From: Chryseobacterium sp. BGARF1
GTDB taxonomy: Bacteria; Bacteroidota; Bacteroidia; Flavobacteriales; Weeksellaceae
DNA: 64,000 nucleotides
Reading direction: 5' to 3'
Assembly: GCF_001677955.1 (NCBI RefSeq)
Contig: NZ_LELA01000002.1
Span: 1 to 64,000 of the forward strand
In this document: positions 45,776-58,850 of the stretch, one piece after another
How the letters are laid out: every line of letters starts with the position of its first letter
Position numbering within the stretch: the first letter of the stretch is position 1
The notes under the pieces: generated by a model
Database searches by the model: none
Seen by the model: the letters and a program-made list of their open reading frames with translations, nothing else
Told to the model about the DNA's origin: nothing
Made by a program: the position numbers and the translations under genes

Positions 45776-46366
45776 TTATTTGTTTCTATCCAAAAGTATT
45801 TTTTCAATATTTTCTAGCTGTAAATTTTTAGCTTTCAGTAAAATTAAAAAGTGATATAATAGATCTGCTGCCTCATTTTTAAACAGATCATCGTTGTTAT
45901 CTTTGGCTTCGATTACCAATTCTACAGCCTCCTCTCCTACTTTTTGAGCCATTTTATTAATTCCTCTTTGGTATAAAGAATAGGTGTAAGAATTTTCGAC
46001 CTTATCATCAATTCTTTGGCGGATTTTTTCTTCCAATTCATACAAAAAACCTTTAGGAGCTTTCTCTCTAAAACAACTGAAACTTCCGGTGTGGCAAACG
46101 GTATTTGTGGGAATCGCCTTAATTAAAATGGTATCGTTATCGCAATCTGTATCAATACTTTTTACCTTTAAAAAGTTTCCTGACTCCTCGCCTTTTGTCC
46201 AAAGTCTGTTTTTTGAGCGACTGAAAAAAGTAACACTCCCTTCTTCTTTTGTTTTATTAAAAGCCTCTTCATTCATATAACCCAACATTAAAACCTGTAA
46301 ATTTCTATCGTCCTGAATAATAACAGGAACTAAATTGTCGTTATTTTTATTAAAATTGATGTTCAT
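45776..46366 (-). CDS. hisIE: Bifunctional phosphoribosyl-AMP cyclohydrolase / phosphoribosyl-ATP pyrophosphatase
   Basis: A 196-residue fusion catalysing steps 2 and 3 of histidine synthesis. The HisI half holds [28 protein letters not shown] and the zinc-ligand cysteines in DTDCDND and TNTVCHTG. The HisE half starts near 110 and has the helical motif [14 protein letters not shown]. Last gene of the his operon, overlapping hisF by 4 bp. Confidence 0.95.
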
Positions 46367-47115
46367 CGTATGTCTATTTTCTTAAATTTTAATTCGTTTT
46401 TTAAATCATTGATTTTAATTTCTCCAAAGTGAAAAATACTTGCTGCTAAAGCTCCTGTTGCTTTGGTTTGATTAAAAATAGTTTCAAAATCTTCAGTTTT
46501 CCCTGCACCACCTGATGCAATTACTGGAATATTCACATTTTCAGAAATTAATTTTGTGATCCGTAAATCGAAACCATTTTTGGTTCCGTCTCCATCCATT
46601 GAAGTTAAAAGGATTTCTCCAGCGCCTAATTCTTCTACTTTTTTTGCCCAATCTAATGTTTTTAGATCTGTCATTTCTCTTCCTCCTTTTACAAAAACGC
46701 AATCGGTGCCGTTAATCAATTTTGTATCTATGGCAACAACAACGCACTGACTACCAAATTCTTTAGCCAAATCAGAAATAAGTTCTGGATCTTTTACTGC
46801 AGAAGAATTAATGCTGATCTTATCTGCTCCGGCTTCCAAGAGTTTTCTTACATCTTCCACAGAAGAAATACCACCTCCAACGGTGAAAGGAATACTCAGT
46901 TTTTTGGCGATGTTTTTTACCAATTCAGCGAATGTTTTTCGTTCTTCGATGGTTGCAGTAATATCAAGGAAAACCAATTCATCTGCTCCTTCATTCTCGT
47001 ATTTTTTTGCCAATTCTATTGGATCTCCGGCATTTCTCAATCCTTCAAAGTTGGTTCCTTTTACGGTAGTTCCGTCTTTTATATCCAGACATGGAATGAT
47101 TCTTTTTTTAAGCAT
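46363..47115 (-). CDS. hisF: Imidazole glycerol phosphate synthase, cyclase subunit
   Basis: A 250-residue TIM barrel starting [15 protein letters not shown]. The N-terminal catalytic Asp is in CLDIKDG and the second in [13 protein letters not shown]. The phosphate-binding loops IPFTVGGGI and [10 protein letters not shown] are present. It pairs with HisH to make the imidazole ring. It is separated from hisA by a 244-bp non-coding gap, the only large gap in the operon. Confidence 0.96.
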
Positions 47116-47359
47116 TTTATTTAATGGGTTACGCAGTTACGCAGTGGCGCAAATTTTTTAATTATTTTTTGATAGGATTTTATCCTATCCTTTATTAAAT
47201 CGTCCCTTTGGGACTTTATTGATTTTTTATTTTGCCCAAAATCTTTAATTGATATTTAAAGAAATCAGCAAACCTCTTGAGGTTTCTAAAACTTATGTGC
47301 TCTTTTATATACAAAAAATTAAAACTCTTCTGTGACTTATGTGTTAAAAGCTTTTGTGG
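47116..47359. other. Non-coding gap inside the his operon
   Basis: Between hisA and hisF are three short hairpins: GATAGGAT/ATCCTATC (about 47170-47188), GTCCC/GGGAC (about 47203-47215) and AAACCTC/GAGGTTT (about 47271-47286). Fragments like TTCTGTGACTTATGTG and TTACGCAG resemble dispersed flavobacterial repeats. No reading frame is credible. A processing or attenuation role is possible. Confidence 0.5.
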
Positions 47360-48073
47360 TTAAACAAAACTCTCCAGTTGTTTCAATGAAATTCTCCCTT
47401 CGTAAATCGCTTTGCCGATAATCGTTCCGTCACATCCAATTTCTTTCATTTTGTAAACATCTTCAATGCAGGAAATTCCGCCGCTTGCCACCAGTTTTAC
47501 TGAAGTTTTACTTATAATTTCTTTGTACAAATCTTCTGAAGCTCCTTCCAACATTCCGTCTTTGGAAATATCGGTACAGATTACATTTTTAATTCCCTTT
47601 TTCTGATAGTAAAGAATAAAATCGATTACATCTCGATCGCTTTCCTCCAGCCAACCTGAAGTTTTTATTTTTCTATTCTCACAATCAGCTCCTAAAATAA
47701 TTTTTTCAGAACCATATTTTTCAATTAAATCAAAACAAAATTCAGGATCTTGAACGGCAATACTTCCAATTGTAATTTGCTTTGCTCCTGAATTAAAAGC
47801 AATTTCTATATCTTCAATAGTTTTCAAACCGCCACCAAAATCGATTTCTAAAGAGGTTTCATTGGCAATGCTTTCTAATATTTTTTGGTTGACAATATGT
47901 TTAGATCTTGCGCCATCCAGATCCACTAAATGAAGAAATTTTATACCAAAACTTTCAAATTCTTTGGCAACTTCTACGGGATTTTCGTTGTATATTTTTT
48001 TAGTTCCATAATCACCTTTCGAAAGGCGCACACATTTTCCGTCGATAATATCAATAGCAGGAATAATTCGCAT
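47360..48073 (-). CDS. hisA: ProFAR isomerase
   Basis: A 237-residue TIM barrel related to HisF, starting [21 protein letters not shown]. The catalytic Asp in PAIDIIDG and the C-terminal half Asp in [10 protein letters not shown] are present. It converts ProFAR to PRFAR. It is 2 bp from hisH. Confidence 0.96.
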
Positions 48074-48075
48074 AT

Positions 48076-48654
48076 CTAAAGTTTTAAAAAGTTTTGTAAT
48101 AATTGGCTTCCAATTTCTCCTGATTTTTCAGGGTGAAACTGCATCGCATAAAAGTTATCTTTCTGCAAAGACGCACTGAAAGGTAAAATATAATCACAAA
48201 CAGCAGTCGTATTTTCTGACAATTCACAATAAAAACTGTGCACAAAATAGGCATCACTTTCTTCTTTAATTCCGGAATAAATGGTTGAATTAAAACCTGA
48301 AATTGTATTCCATCCCATGTGCGGAATGATATTTTCTGCAGAAAACTTTTTTACATGAATATCAAAAATTCCCATTCCAACCGTATTTCCTTCTTCGGTA
48401 TTTTTGCACATCAACTGCATTCCGAGACAAATTCCTAAAACAGGTTGCTTCAAAGTTGGAATTAACTGATCTAATCCTTTTTCATTTAAGGTTTTCATCG
48501 TTGAAGATGCTTCCCCAACTCCGGGAAAAATTACTTTATCGACATTTTTTATTAACTCAAAATCATCCGTAATAATCGATTCTGCTCCTAATCTGTTCAA
48601 TGCATTTTGTACAGAATTGACGTTTCCGCCGTTGTATTTTATAATTGCAATCAT
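48076..48654 (-). CDS. hisH: Imidazole glycerol phosphate synthase, glutaminase subunit
   Basis: A 192-residue class I glutamine amidotransferase. The nucleophilic cysteine is in [11 protein letters not shown] and the His-Glu pair in MQFHPEKSG. It supplies ammonia to HisF. It directly abuts hisB with no gap. Confidence 0.96.
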
Positions 48655-49749
48655 CTATAAACTTCCTTTTGTTGACGGTACATTAAAATTCTGATCGGTT
48701 TGGTTTACAGCCATTTTTATCGCTTTTGCAAAGGCTTTAAAAATAGATTCTATTTTATGATGTTCGTTTTCTCCTTCCGCTTTGATATTAAGATTACATC
48801 TAGCAGAATCGGTGAAAGATTTGAAAAAATGCTCAAACATTTCCGTAGGAACATCTCCAATTTTTTCACGTTTAAAATCAGCTTCCCAAACCAACCACGA
48901 ACGACCTCCAAAATCAAGCGCAACCTGTGCCAAACAGTCGTCCATCGGAAGCAGAAAACCATATCTTTCAATTCCTTTTTTCTTTCCTAAAGCTTTTAAA
49001 ATGGCTTCGCCTAAAACAATTCCTGTGTCTTCAATGGTGTGATGTTCATCAACTAGTAAGTCTCCGTTAACTTTAATTTTTAAATCTAAATTGCCGTGTT
49101 TTGATATCTGTTCAAGCATATGATCGAAAAAATGTAAACCTGTTGAGATTTCAGACTTTCCACTTCCATCAAGATTGATTTCTATTTGAATATCTGTTTC
49201 ATTGGTTTTTCTTGAAACTTTGGCTTTTCGTGGAATCTGCTTTAAATATTGATAGATTTCATTCCAGCTTTCAGTCGTCAAATTCGCATCTTCATTTTGA
49301 ATTTTATTAATGAATATTGATTTTGAATCTAAATTTTTTGCTAATTGAATATCTGTCAATCGGTCTCCAATTACAAAAGAATTTTCTAAATCATAATTTC
49401 CGTAAATGTATTTACCCAACATCCCTATTCCAGGTTTTCTTGTCGGTAGATTTTCACTTTCAAAGCTTTTATCAATCAAAATATCATTGAAAATAATTCC
49501 TTCATTTTCAAAAGCTTTCAGCATTTTTTCTTGAGGTTTTATAAAATCTTCATAAGGAAAACTTGCGGTTCCCAGACCATCCTGATTGGTCACTATAACC
49601 AATTCAAAATCAAGTTCTTTTGTAATTTTTGAAAGGTTTTGAAAAATGCCAGGATAGAATTCCAGTTTTTCTAAAGAATCAACCTGAAAATCTGTTAGCG
49701 GTTCTTTAATTAATGTTCCGTCACGGTCTATTAATAATACTTTTTTCAT
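48655..49749 (-). CDS. hisB: Bifunctional histidinol-phosphatase / imidazoleglycerol-phosphate dehydratase
   Basis: A 364-residue fusion. The N-terminal HAD-type phosphatase (to about 170) carries LIDRDGTLI with the nucleophile Asp. The C-terminal IGPD domain carries [16 protein letters not shown] and [10 protein letters not shown], the metal-binding histidine clusters. It performs steps 6 and 8 of the pathway, so no separate histidinol-phosphatase is needed. Confidence 0.96.
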
Positions 49750-49775
49750 TTTTAAATAATTTTATTTTCAGCTAA

Positions 49776-50816
49776 TTAAACCTTATAGGTTTCGCACTGA
49801 TTTAAAACGTTAATCAATTGAATGTTTTCTTCTCTATTCCCCACATTAATTCTGATACAATTGGGAATTTGAGGGCTTCTCTTACTTGTTAAAATTTCTT
49901 TTTCCAACAATTTTTCGTAAACCTTTTCTAGATCTTCAAACTCAATCAAGAAAAAATTTGCATCAGTTGGATACACTTTTTTAATACAGTTAACTAATTG
50001 AAATTCATTTTCCAACCATGAAATTTCATTTAAAATACTTTCTATGTTTTGCTTTACATTTTCCTGTTTATCGATGAGCTCAATTACTTTATTTGAGCTT
50101 AAAGAATTCACATTGTAAGGCGCTTTTACCGTATTGATTAACTTAATAATTTCTGCAGAAGAATAAGCCATTCCTACTCTTGCTCCAGCCATTCCCCAAG
50201 CTTTTGAGAAAGTCTGAAGGACAATAAGATTTGGATATTTTTCTAATAAGTCAATACAGGATTTTTCCCCTGAAAACTCAATATAAGCTTCATCCACAAC
50301 TACAATTCCATTGAAATTTTTAATATAAAACTCAATATCTTTTACAGAATTTCCTGTAGGATTATTCGGTGAACACAAGAAAAAAACTTTAGATTTAAAA
50401 TCTTTTGAAATTTTCAGAAAATCATCTTTTACTATTTCAAAATCTGCATTTAAATCTAGTTTTATGACTTTATTTTCATTGATTGAAGCATAAAAACCAT
50501 ACATCGCAAACGACGGATTCATCATTAAAATTGAATCTTTTTTGGGATCACAGAAAACTTTTATAATTAAATCAATTAACTCATCACTTCCATTTCCGAC
50601 TGCAATTTGATTGGCAGAAATATTTTTTATTTCAGAGAGTTTTTGCTTTACTATTTTTTGAGTAGAATCAGGATAACGACTCAATTCTCCAAACGGACTT
50701 TCATTAGCATCCAGCAAAACCGCATTTTCAAATTCATTATGATCCCTAAAACTAATGTAAGGCTGTAATTCTAAGATATTTTTTCTTACTAAACTATTGA
50801 TATTAAATTCTTTCAT
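49776..50816 (-). CDS. hisC: Histidinol-phosphate aminotransferase
   Basis: A 346-residue fold-type I PLP enzyme. The PLP lysine is in LQTFSKAWGMAGARVG. The N-terminal LDANESPFG and the PNNPTGN motif are conserved. It converts imidazole acetol phosphate to histidinol phosphate. It ends 26 bp before hisB and starts 4 bp after hisD. Confidence 0.96.
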   Translation of the reverse strand: MKEFNINSLVRKNILELQPYISFRDHNEFENAVLLDANESPFGELSRYPDSTQKIVKQKLSEIKNISANQIAVGNGSDELIDLIIKVFCDPKKDSILMMNPSFAMYGFYASINENKVIKLDLNADFEIVKDDFLKISKDFKSKVFFLCSPNNPTGNSVKDIEFYIKNFNGIVVVDEAYIEFSGEKSCIDLLEKYPNLIVLQTFSKAWGMAGARVGMAYSSAEIIKLINTVKAPYNVNSLSSNKVIELIDKQENVKQNIESILNEISWLENEFQLVNCIKKVYPTDANFFLIEFEDLEKVYEKLLEKEILTSKRSPQIPNCIRINVGNREENIQLINVLNQCETYKV

Positions 50817-50820
50817 TTTC

Positions 50821-52095
50821 TTATTTTAATCTGATTGATACGGCGTTTTTGTGAGCAAATAATCCTTCTGCTTCTGCCATGAGTTCTATTGTTTTTCCTA
50901 AATTTTGGAGTCCTTCTTTTGATAAATTCTGAAACGTAATTTTCTTTACAAAACTGTCTAAAGAAACTCCGCTGTAATTTTTTGCAAATCCGTTGGTTGG
51001 AAGCGTATGATTGGTTCCACTTGCATAATCTCCCGCGCTTTCACAAGAATAGTTTCCAAGAAAAACCGAACCTGCATTTTGAATTTTTGGAATATACTTT
51101 TCATAATCTTCCAAACCTAAAATCAAATGTTCCGGAGCATACAGATTGCTGAATTCAAGGGCTTTATCTAAAGAATCTAACAAAATGAAATGACTGTTTT
51201 TCAAAGCTTCTTTTGCAAATTTATTTCTTGGAAGTTTTTTAAGCTGTTTTTCTGTTTCTTCAATGGTTTGGTTAAAAATTTTCTCATCAGTTGAAAGAAA
51301 AATCACCTGACTGTCACTTCCGTGTTCTGCCTGAGAAAGTAAATCTGCGGCGCAATATTCTGGAATTGCCTGTTCATCAGCAATGACCAAAACTTCACTT
51401 GGTCCTGCAGGCATATCTATTGCGACATTATAATTTTGAGCAAACTCTTTTGCCGCGACTACATATTGATTTCCCGGTCCGAAAATTTTGTAAACATTCG
51501 GAATACTTTCTGTTCCTAAAGTCATTGCTGCAATAGCCTGAGCTCCGCCGATTTTAAATATTTTTGTAACTTCACAAAGCTTTGCGGTATATAAAATGGC
51601 TGGATTAATATTCCCTTTTTTATCAGGCGGTGTACACAAAATAATTTCTTTACAACCAGCCAATTGAGCAGGAATTGCCAACATTAAAACTGTAGAAAAT
51701 AAAGGTGCTGTTCCACCGGGAATATAGATTCCTACTTTTTCGATGGCTCTGTTTTCTCGCCAACAAATGACTCCTTTTGTCGTTTCAATTTTTTCAATTC
51801 CGGGAATTTGAGAGCTGTGGAATTTCGTAATATTTTCTTTTGCCTGCTGAATGGCTTTTTTTAATTCCTTACTTATTAAATTTTCTGAAATTTCTATTTC
51901 TTCTTCAGAAACTTTAATATTTTTAATTTCAGCCTTATCAAATTTTTCATTGAAATTAATTAAAGCCTGATCGCCATTTTTATCAACTTCATTAAAAATA
52001 CCGGCTATTAATTCTGTCAATTCTTCTCTTTTGATGACCGGTCTTTTCACCAATTCTGGCCAGATTTCTCTTTGAGGATATTTATTGATTTTCAT
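50821..52095 (-). CDS. hisD: Histidinol dehydrogenase
   Basis: A 424-residue zinc enzyme performing the last two oxidations to histidine with NAD. Typical segments are YIPGGTAPLFSTVLMLAIPA, IFGPGNQYVVAAKEFA, PAGPSEVLVIAD, LLSQAEHGSDSQ and ASGTNHTLPTNGFA, with the zinc and substrate histidines. It starts 1 bp after hisG. Confidence 0.97.
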   Translation of the reverse strand: MKINKYPQREIWPELVKRPVIKREELTELIAGIFNEVDKNGDQALINFNEKFDKAEIKNIKVSEEEIEISENLISKELKKAIQQAKENITKFHSSQIPGIEKIETTKGVICWRENRAIEKVGIYIPGGTAPLFSTVLMLAIPAQLAGCKEIILCTPPDKKGNINPAILYTAKLCEVTKIFKIGGAQAIAAMTLGTESIPNVYKIFGPGNQYVVAAKEFAQNYNVAIDMPAGPSEVLVIADEQAIPEYCAADLLSQAEHGSDSQVIFLSTDEKIFNQTIEETEKQLKKLPRNKFAKEALKNSHFILLDSLDKALEFSNLYAPEHLILGLEDYEKYIPKIQNAGSVFLGNYSCESAGDYASGTNHTLPTNGFAKNYSGVSLDSFVKKITFQNLSKEGLQNLGKTIELMAEAEGLFAHKNAVSIRLK

Positions 52096-52096
52096 G

Positions 52097-52954
52097 TTAA
52101 ATCACCATTTTATCGATTGGAATGATTAAAATATCTTGTGCTCCTTTTTCTTTCAATTCGTCTATGACTTCCCAAAAACGTTCTTCATCAATGACTGAAT
52201 GAATGCTGCTCCAACCCTCTTCAGCTAAAGGAATTACCGTTGGACTTTTTAAAACCGGGAGAATGTTTGAGACTTCTGAGATCTTTTCATTCGGAACATT
52301 CATCAAAATGTATTTCGAGTTTTTTGCTCTTAAAACAGATTGAATTCTGAACAGAAATTTTTCTAGATTTTTTTGCTTATCACTATTTAACTGAAACGTT
52401 TTTGCAAGGACAGCCTCAGACTTTAAAATGGTAACTGTTTCCCTCAAACCATTTTTGAATAAAGTGCTTCCGGAACTTACAATATCACAAATTCCATCGG
52501 CAAGACCAATGTTGGGAGCAATTTCTACCGAGCCAGAAATGACGTGTATATCTGCTGAAATATTATTTTTCAAGAGAAAATTCTTCAGTGTATTAGGGTA
52601 AGAAGTAGCAATTTTTTTGCCTTGAAAGTAAGTGATATCGTCTGTTTCAATTTCTTTTGGAATGGCTAAAGAAACTCTGCATTTTGAAAATCCTAAACTT
52701 TGGATAATTTCAATATTTTTTTGTTTTTCGACCAAGAGGTTTTCGCCGACAATCGCGATGTCAACTACACCATCTTCCAAATATTGAGGGATGTCAGAAT
52801 TTCGCAGATACATAATTTCCATTGGGAAATTATCTACAGAAACTTTCAGTTGGTCTTTCCCGTTGTTGACGAAAATTCCGCAATCTTTGAGAAGCTGAAG
52901 AGATTCTTCATAAAGCCGTCCGCTTTTTTGTATGGCAATTTTTAATGTACTCAT
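52097..52954 (-). CDS. hisG: ATP phosphoribosyltransferase (long form)
   Basis: A 285-residue enzyme for the first, feedback-controlled step of histidine synthesis. The N-terminal LKIAIQKSGRLYEESLQLL, the phosphate loop ADGICDIVSSGSTL and a C-terminal ACT-like regulatory domain (from about 210) mark the long, HisZ-independent form. It is the first gene of the operon, read through an attenuator leader of about 210 nt. Confidence 0.96.
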   Translation of the reverse strand: MSTLKIAIQKSGRLYEESLQLLKDCGIFVNNGKDQLKVSVDNFPMEIMYLRNSDIPQYLEDGVVDIAIVGENLLVEKQKNIEIIQSLGFSKCRVSLAIPKEIETDDITYFQGKKIATSYPNTLKNFLLKNNISADIHVISGSVEIAPNIGLADGICDIVSSGSTLFKNGLRETVTILKSEAVLAKTFQLNSDKQKNLEKFLFRIQSVLRAKNSKYILMNVPNEKISEVSNILPVLKSPTVIPLAEEGWSSIHSVIDEERFWEVIDELKEKGAQDILIIPIDKMVI

Positions 52955-53019
52955 TTCAATTGTATTGAGTCTGAGTAAATAAAAACTGATTGTTTGAAAT
53001 AAATTGCCGCGGAAGAATT

Positions 53020-53060
53020 TAGAAACAAAAAACCGTCTGTTTACTCAGACGGTTTTTAAT
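53020..53060 (-). terminator. his attenuator terminator hairpin
   Basis: On the minus strand, AACCGTCTG (53054-53046) and CAGACGGTT (53039-53031) form a 9-bp stem with loop AGTAAA and then a run of T. It lies between the leader peptide and hisG. The 5' arm CCGTCT can instead pair with AGACGG just after the leader stop codon (53102-53097), giving an antiterminator. Confidence 0.82.
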
Positions 53061-53100
53061 TATTTTGATTTCTAACATAGTCATATATCAACAATTCCGT

Positions 53101-53151
53101 CTAGCAGAGATGATGATAATAATGATGTACTGTTAAAAAATTCGGTTTCAT
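53101..53151 (-). CDS. hisL: his operon leader peptide
   Basis: An ATG at 53151 opens a 16-codon frame: MKPNFLTVHHYYHHLC, then TAG. Four of six consecutive codons are His and the other two Tyr. The start lies about 15 nt after the predicted transcription start. The peptide ends just before the antiterminator segment, with the terminator hairpin 40-70 nt further on and hisG behind it. This is the classical attenuator order: a ribosome stalled at the His codons would leave AGACGG free to block the terminator. Such leader peptides are well known in Gammaproteobacteria. Confidence 0.85.
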   Translation of the reverse strand: MKPNFLTVHHYYHHLC

Positions 53152-53172
53152 ATTTCTTTGAATATTGTGGTA

Positions 53173-53203
53173 CAAATGTAGGACTAATTTTTAATCCCGC
53201 AAG
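53173..53203 (-). promoter_or_regulatory. his operon promoter
   Basis: On the minus strand, CTTG (53203-53200) and TACATTTG (53180-53173) with a 19-bp spacer match the flavobacterial consensus with one mismatch. It lies directly behind the stop of the glycosyltransferase gene and before the leader peptide. Confidence 0.7.
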
Positions 53204-58776: not shown

Positions 58777-58850
58777 TGGAGAATACGGGGATCGAACCCG
58801 TCACCTTTAGACTGCCAGTCTAACGCTCTAGCCAGATGAGCTAATTCCCC
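58777..58850 (-). tRNA. tRNA-Ala (anticodon GGC)
   Basis: The minus strand folds into a 74-nt cloverleaf starting GGGGAATTAGCTC. The anticodon stem is TTAGA/TCTAA around the loop CTGGCAG, giving anticodon GGC, and the T-arm contains GGTTCGATCC. The acceptor stem has a G3-U70 pair, the alanine identity element. CCA is not fully encoded. Confidence 0.95.

Follow-up and report, generated by a model that had tools for sequence, protein, structure and literature searches.

A histidine-sensing on/off switch, as judged from sequence, precedes the his genes of this Chryseobacterium and of most of the relatives examined, and an extra conserved RNA pairing may also control whether hisG can be translated; this proposed translational role is supported by folding predictions only in part. 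The switch lies in a window of 64 kb, the whole stretch of DNA analysed, from a Chryseobacterium-like genome with nearest HisG matches of 95-97%. On the minus strand a Bacteroidetes-type promoter is followed by a His-rich leader, a terminator hairpin with a T-run and then hisG, which opens an eight-gene his operon reaching down to 45776 (Table 1). The original prediction had described leader, antiterminator and terminator rightly, but it stopped at the terminator and missed a further strand, here called segment 5, with its two partners: the terminator apex (pairing 3L:5) and the hisG start (pairing 5:6).

Table 1. Features of the his leader region and other annotated genes in the 64-kb window
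Feature	Position	Strand	Sequence or description	Basis
Promoter, Bacteroidetes type (TTG - 19 nt - TAnnTTTG)	53173..53202	-	TTG at 53202-53200, 19 nt spacing, TACATTTG at 53180-53173	sequence
Leader peptide	53101..53151	-	MKPNFLTVHHYYHHLC; 16 codons containing HHYYHH, ATG at 53151, TAG ending at 53101; His/Tyr codons 9-14 at 53127-53110	sequence and alignments
Segment 2, antiterminator strand	53097..53103	-	TAGACGG, overlaps the leader stop codon	complements CCGTCTG of segment 3
Segment 3, terminator 5' arm	53046..53057	-	AAAAACCGTCTG	folding and alignment
Segment 3L, part of the 5' arm plus loop	53040..53050	-	GTCTGAGTAAA, partner of segment 5	alignment, swaps, covariation
Terminator loop	53040-53045	-	AGTAAA	sequence
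Segment 4, terminator 3' arm	53028..53039	-	CAGACGGTTTTT, then T-run	sequence, folding, alignment
Segment 5, proposed switch strand	52969..52979	-	TTTACTCAGAC, hisG -25..-15	complements 3L and the hisG start
Segment 6, hisG start region	52948..52953	-	TGAGTA containing UG of AUG, pairs with TACTCA of segment 5	hairpin folding, complementarity
hisG	52097..52954	-		Pfam PF01634, E 2.7e-48
hisD, hisC, hisB, hisH, hisA, hisF, hisIE	45776..52095	-		names by recognition of translations
tRNA gene	58777-58850	-		sole Rfam gathering match in the window

Leader peptide, terminator and antiterminator

The 16-codon leader with its HHYYHH run had been described correctly by the original prediction as lying between promoter and hisG, and its coordinates are refined here. 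In the window, four His within six residues occur in no other frame of 8-45 codons; ten shuffled windows, counted more laxly with no upper limit on frame length, yielded 4 His-rich frames. Promoters of Bacteroidetes follow the consensus TTG - 19 nt - TAnnTTTG, and a TAnnTTTG element is present at most 90 nt upstream of the leader in 92/92 records of the genus, 56/59 records of other members of the same family and 42/87 records of family f3. Rfam searches at gathering score matched nothing in the his leader region of the window, and at E 10 they gave 16 sub-threshold matches in the window, all to other families and none to a his leader; a T-box covariance-model match was absent from the window at both settings.

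Upstream regions of hisG were compared in a non-random sample of loci, made up of the best-scoring HisG matches plus added regions and, for f3, of all 81 genomes with a HisG match, one per genus. Groups are named by family codes, with f1 for the family of the window and f3 for what is probably Flavobacteriaceae; the order is taken to be Flavobacteriales. This comparison, which the original prediction had proposed, revealed a His-rich leader together with a terminator in 270 of 305 distinct upstream regions, window included, leaving 35 misses. Among all fetched loci both were found in 92/93 of the genus, 59/60 of other f1 members, 87/91 of f3, 17/25 of other families of the order and 15/36 outside the order. 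For loci with enough upstream DNA the first three counts are 92/92, 59/60 and 87/90, the genus miss being a record with short upstream DNA and one f3 miss having only 118 nt. The His codons, whose absence from close relatives had been named as an argument against an attenuator, are retained in all genus loci with enough upstream DNA. Similarly, 79 of 80 named records carry the leader, and the exception has only 99 nt upstream. Other families of the order account for eight misses, seven of them in 0.6-Mb genomes, and several misses outside the order have a His-rich frame with no terminator detected. In these seven small genomes (L147, L149, L150, L153, L155, L157, L160), where a His leader was likewise undetected, a similar hairpin, AGCTTAC..GTAAGCT, lies 39-51 nt before hisG and is perhaps an attenuator relic. 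Within the genus, hisG is apparently broken or split in four genomes (G062, G064, G092, G127), and a HisG match is absent in 6 of 148.

Tyr stands inside the run in all 92 genus leaders. In the 79 of these with 16 codons (the codon counts omit the 13 of other length), CAT is used without exception at codons 9 and 10, Tyr is fixed at codon 11 (TAT 71, TAC 8), and codon 12 encodes Tyr in 45 leaders and His in 34. In the other groups the run includes a Tyr in 7/59 same-family leaders, 2/87 in f3, 0/17 in other families of the order and 1/15 outside the order. Since position 12 varies between Tyr and His and Tyr is rare outside the genus, His is the signal common to all leaders. The original prediction had suggested that the Tyr-Tyr pair could make the leader sense two amino acids, and a Tyr-11 fixed in 79/79 with use of both Tyr codons, as well as the Tyr in every genus run, would agree with such a sensor; the exchange of Tyr-12 for His in 34/79, the scarcity of Tyr in the runs of other groups and the assignment of the recognised operon genes to histidine synthesis make it very improbable. 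Dual His/Tyr sensing is therefore unsupported, and Tyr-11 may have a genus-specific reason. Phe breaks the His run in 43/87 f3 leaders, often as HHHHFH and at a similar place to the Chryseobacterium Tyr (e.g. L213, L254, L283).

The terminator of the window has a folding energy of -16 kcal/mol (z -5.2). Its stem is paired in 96.8% of cells of alignment A1 (43 rows of 117 references, picked by eye, mostly for the register of the 5' arm), with a covariation of 0.247. The region of segment 2, predicted earlier as AGACGG at the leader stop to pair with the 5' arm of the terminator, has a mean complementarity to this arm above that of shuffles in all five groups, and a score of at least 16 is reached by 91/92 genus records against 8% of shuffles. 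When own partners were compared with swapped partners in independent pairs, own partners of 2:3 were better in 22, worse in 10 and tied in 37 cases (p=0.025). By its position, segment 2 would be covered by a ribosome at the leader stop and would not be covered by a ribosome stalled on the first His codon. The locus combines three anatomical features of amino-acid attenuators, a short leader rich in the relevant codons, a terminator before the first gene and an antiterminator strand that lies near the leader stop and excludes the terminator. With all parts conserved and in the order originally claimed, it is by its anatomy a ribosome-mediated His attenuator.

Segment 5 and its two partners

Alignment of the 92 distinct genus leaders revealed that the terminator loop is conserved and that TTTACTCAGAC is conserved just before hisG, as the reverse complement of the loop and part of the 5' arm. 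These 11 nt are complementary both to the 5' arm and loop of the terminator and to the hisG start codon. Loop and downstream segment vary together (GTAAA/TTTAC, GACAA/TTGTT, GTACA/TGTAC and, with one G-U, GAACA/TGTTT), and another genus has the loop GAACA or GAGCA with TGTTC downstream. In some loci (e.g. L112, L113, L152) the pairing uses the loop and the 3' arm instead.

A 3L:5 complement score of at least 20 (the score cut-offs of 14, 16, 18 and 20 were fixed while the data were in view) was found in 92/92 genus records, 51/59 other same-family records, 61/87 f3 records, 7/17 records of other families of the order and 1/15 outside the order, and own shuffles reach this score in 3.8, 0.7, 1.4, 1.8 and 2.0%, respectively. 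Pairing of apex and segment 5 is thus present in several families of the order (f1, f3, f4, f7, f14, f15); the one match among 15 records outside it is loose and comes with a weak terminator. In f3, 26 of 87 records lack 3L:5; the pairing is present in 16/36 short-spacer loci vs 45/51 loci with longer spacers. Exchanging partners among 119 non-genus paired records lowered the mean 3L:5 score from 26.6 to 17.3 between different loops, compared with 28.1 between equal loops; within the genus, swaps do not discriminate (own 27.9, swapped 27.1), because the sequences are too alike.

Shared ancestry was allowed for in a test of independent pairs, in which 194 records with leader and terminator, including every third genus record and with rows not selected on outcome, were placed on a FastTree tree of about 150 HisG residues and divided into 70 disjoint pairs with different apices. 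Own partners of 3L:5 were better in 46, worse in 6 and tied in 18 (p=5.2e-9). On A1, 8 of 13 pairs of 3L:5 change on both sides, covariation is 0.410 compared with 0.247 for the terminator stem, 95.8% of cells are paired vs at most 45% when the strands are slid, and 56 cells show changes in both partners vs 13 in shuffles. Shuffles, swaps and independent pairs together reject chance complementarity of A+T-rich sequence as a source of 3L:5. Sequence comparison strongly supports this conserved pairing, which joins the apex of the terminator to the initiation region of hisG and is the most unusual part of the locus.

The second partner of segment 5 is the start of hisG, to which it is complementary mostly from the U of AUG onward. 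In the window the 5:6 hairpin at the start codon has -9.1 kcal/mol (z -3.5). In the clade with the GACAA loop the start-binding ACTCAT directly adjoins segment 5, and in L269 and L290 the start-side partner lies, by eye, around hisG codons 6-9. Own start regions were better than swapped ones in 30 independent pairs, worse in 14 and tied in 31 (p=0.011), a modest covariation that is weaker than for 3L:5; pairs differing in the first four hisG codons gave 29:13 (8 ties; p=0.0098). Mimicry between apex and start, which served as control, was not significant in independent pairs (23:16 to 24:18; p=0.17 for 23:16). On A1, 5:6 had 86.8% paired cells vs 81.9% in shuffles and a covariation of 0.218 vs 0.139, while its number of pair types lay within the shuffles (114/500).

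The start-region complement is linked to the presence of 3L:5. Scores of at least 18 were reached by 93% of the 92 genus records and 64% of the 119 non-genus records with 3L:5, but by 3% of those without it, where 38 of 44 records were testable, with shuffles at 3-11%; among long-spacer records without 3L:5 the count is 0/10. Part of this link is inherent, because one segment serves both partners, although terminator pairing by itself does not require segment 5 to match the start codon. The fold z of the region -40..+24 averages -3.33 in the genus, -1.81 in other records with 3L:5 and -0.13 in records without. In f3, 5:6 is weak (36/61), and the tie of segment 5 to the start codon is no tighter than its tie to the terminator. 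Overall, sequence comparisons lend moderate support to 5:6.

Predicted folding and modes of action

We propose a switch at two levels, in which histidine, when present, would cause termination and a hidden start, and its absence would cause read-through and an exposed start. If His-tRNA suffices, the ribosome would reach the leader stop and cover segment 2, so that 3:4 forms and transcription ends before hisG; when His-tRNA is short it would stall on the His codons, 2:3 would form and RNA polymerase would read through. In a transcript that passes with its terminator folded, segment 5 would fold back on the start codon (5:6) and close it. If the terminator is prevented, segment 5 may instead enter via the loop and pair with the freed apex (3L:5), which would open the start codon and keep the terminator from re-forming. 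A single stalling event would in this way set both read-through and translation. A ribosome-mediated His attenuator coupled to such a translational lock is the best explanation of the locus, and one we hold tentatively, at a little short of an even chance.

Folding predictions were compared in 17 of the 92 genus records, 51 f1 and 61 f3 records, and means are given in this order. When the terminator is folded, segment 5 is predicted to be mainly in 5:6 (0.54, 0.45, 0.29). With 3:4 penalised and a stalled leader ribosome, apex:5 rises to 0.18, 0.38 and 0.48 and 5:6 falls to 0.39, 0.20 and 0.12; with 3:4 penalised and the ribosome at the stop, the values are 0.48, 0.52 and 0.60 for apex:5 and 0.14, 0.10 and 0.04 for 5:6. 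Before the start region is transcribed, apex:5 already stands at 0.36, 0.28 and 0.18 if the terminator may form, and at 0.60-0.61 if it is penalised. The folding with 3:4 penalised fits a start that is closed when the terminator is folded and open when it is prevented.

In pseudoknot-free folding with the terminator allowed, 3L:5 is rare (means of no more than 0.06; 0-6% of loci, depending on the group, exceed 0.5). When segment 4 was kept unpaired (24/92 genus records) in the presence of a stalled ribosome, 5:6 hardly dropped, from 0.67, 0.55 and 0.38 to 0.62, 0.54 and 0.35, and 3L:5 reached only 0.07-0.14. For the RNA of the window the best stalled structure has 2:3 together with a closed start codon, and 3L:5 wins in just two settings, a ribosome at the stop combined with a penalty on 3:4, or an RNA cut before the start codon. 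Predicted exposure of the start codon changes little, with 0.32-0.37 in the replete, 0.38-0.46 in the stalled and 0.32-0.42 in the idle state. As 3L:5 seldom beats the terminator in full-RNA folding, a switch at equilibrium is unsupported. A working switch would have to be kinetic or of some other nature, and a kinetic one is assumed here.

These predictions bear on a simpler attenuator working by 2:3 vs 3:4 only, in which segment 5 has no translational role and serves, for example, to protect the 5' part of the mRNA or to block re-formation of the terminator. Folding that disfavours 3L:5 and leaves 5:6 in the stalled window RNA would suit it, as would the loci outside the order and the short-spacer f3 loci, where leader and terminator alone often suffice. 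It does not account for a segment 5 that also matches the start region, with complementarity at background where 3L:5 is lacking, nor for initiation regions unusually structured only in loci with 3L:5, and we consider it rather unlikely. The dual match may also be read as a three-way switch in which the apex imitates the hisG start, segment 5 binds either one, and a decision made during passage of RNA polymerase through the attenuator is kept as the translational state of the mRNA; this more specific reading is possible, if somewhat doubtful.

Conserved loops that nucleate pairing near an initiation region are typical of antisense RNAs, and the Sinorhizobium attenuator RNA rnTrpL acts in trans. 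The terminated leader RNA could accordingly work as a small RNA whose loop pairs with segment 5 of the his mRNA and alters its translation or stability, and complementarity alone does not separate cis from trans action. If 5:6 closes the start, however, such pairing would open the start codon when histidine is plentiful, which is the wrong direction and makes action in trans quite unlikely.

Relation to other attenuators

The same genome has a second candidate attenuator on the minus strand upstream of trpE (L228; G000:C224), with leader MIISNNKNWWWHSNSSSGLMLLSCC, a promoter-like TACATTTG and a terminator. Of 31 trpE loci from this family, 27 have Trp-rich leaders (WWW or WW), and a pairing of the 3L:5 type was found in 3 of the 26 with a terminator, all from genus g9. 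Because these Trp attenuators mostly lack it, the his pairing is no by-product of attenuators or of the method. In the three g9 loci (L340, L342, L343), a downstream stretch of 12-14 nt complements the loop and 3' arm of the trp terminator; this may be an analogue of the his pairing that arose independently. ilvD was not found in the genome of the window, and the region upstream of hom showed neither a leader rich in Thr or Ile nor a terminator.

The his and trp attenuators of enteric bacteria share with this locus a run of codons for the end product, an antiterminator masked by the ribosome at the leader stop, a terminator and a long biosynthetic operon. The present locus differs in its Bacteroidetes promoter, its His run broken by Tyr, the lack of an Rfam match to the window region and, above all, the extra segment 5 that links the terminator apex to the hisG start; to our knowledge, no link of this kind between terminator apex and first-gene start is established for enteric attenuators. 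Attenuator RNAs with a second, post-transcriptional effect are known from the Bacillus trp leader (TRAP) and Sinorhizobium rnTrpL, which differ in being protein-bound or trans-acting. No description of a pairing between terminator apex and hisG initiation region was found in the open literature searched, supplements apart.

Attenuation in Bacteroidetes/Chlorobi was reportedly predicted by Lopatovskaya in 2010. The original prediction knew of no described leader of this kind in the phylum; a 2021 study of Flavobacterium psychrophilum already reports leader-peptide attenuation before amino-acid operons (PMC9723704), and leader attenuation as a kind is not new to the phylum. That system shares with ours the phylum and the position before amino-acid biosynthesis operons, but the accessible part of the report describes it with no named operon, peptide or pairing (PMC9723704). 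Leader-like small frames have also been described in Bacteroides thetaiotaomicron (PMC7366714), and structure near the start codon tunes translation initiation in F. johnsoniae (PMC6847099), in line with the proposed lock. A close parallel for a dual effect is the tlrB (yxjB) leader of Bacillus subtilis, where a ribosome stalled on a leader peptide governs two structures, a terminator and a hairpin that masks the initiation site (PMC6851288). The tlrB leader senses an antibiotic and hides a Shine-Dalgarno site; an overlapping antiterminator was not identified in it, and it is the stalled ribosome that blocks both structures (PMC6851288). Here, in contrast, the terminator apex is a partner of the proposed sequestering strand. 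What is new here is segment 5 and its pairings with the terminator apex and the hisG start, a covarying RNA element that has no Rfam match in the window.

Bacteroidetes mRNAs are translated with initiation that does without Shine-Dalgarno sites. If the proposed switch is true, attenuation timed by the ribosome, which needs coupled transcription and translation, would be a common control of his genes in a phylum with this mode of initiation. The order would then have added a conserved second layer to his attenuation, and the purpose of this layer can be tested by comparison, because few trp attenuators of the family have it.
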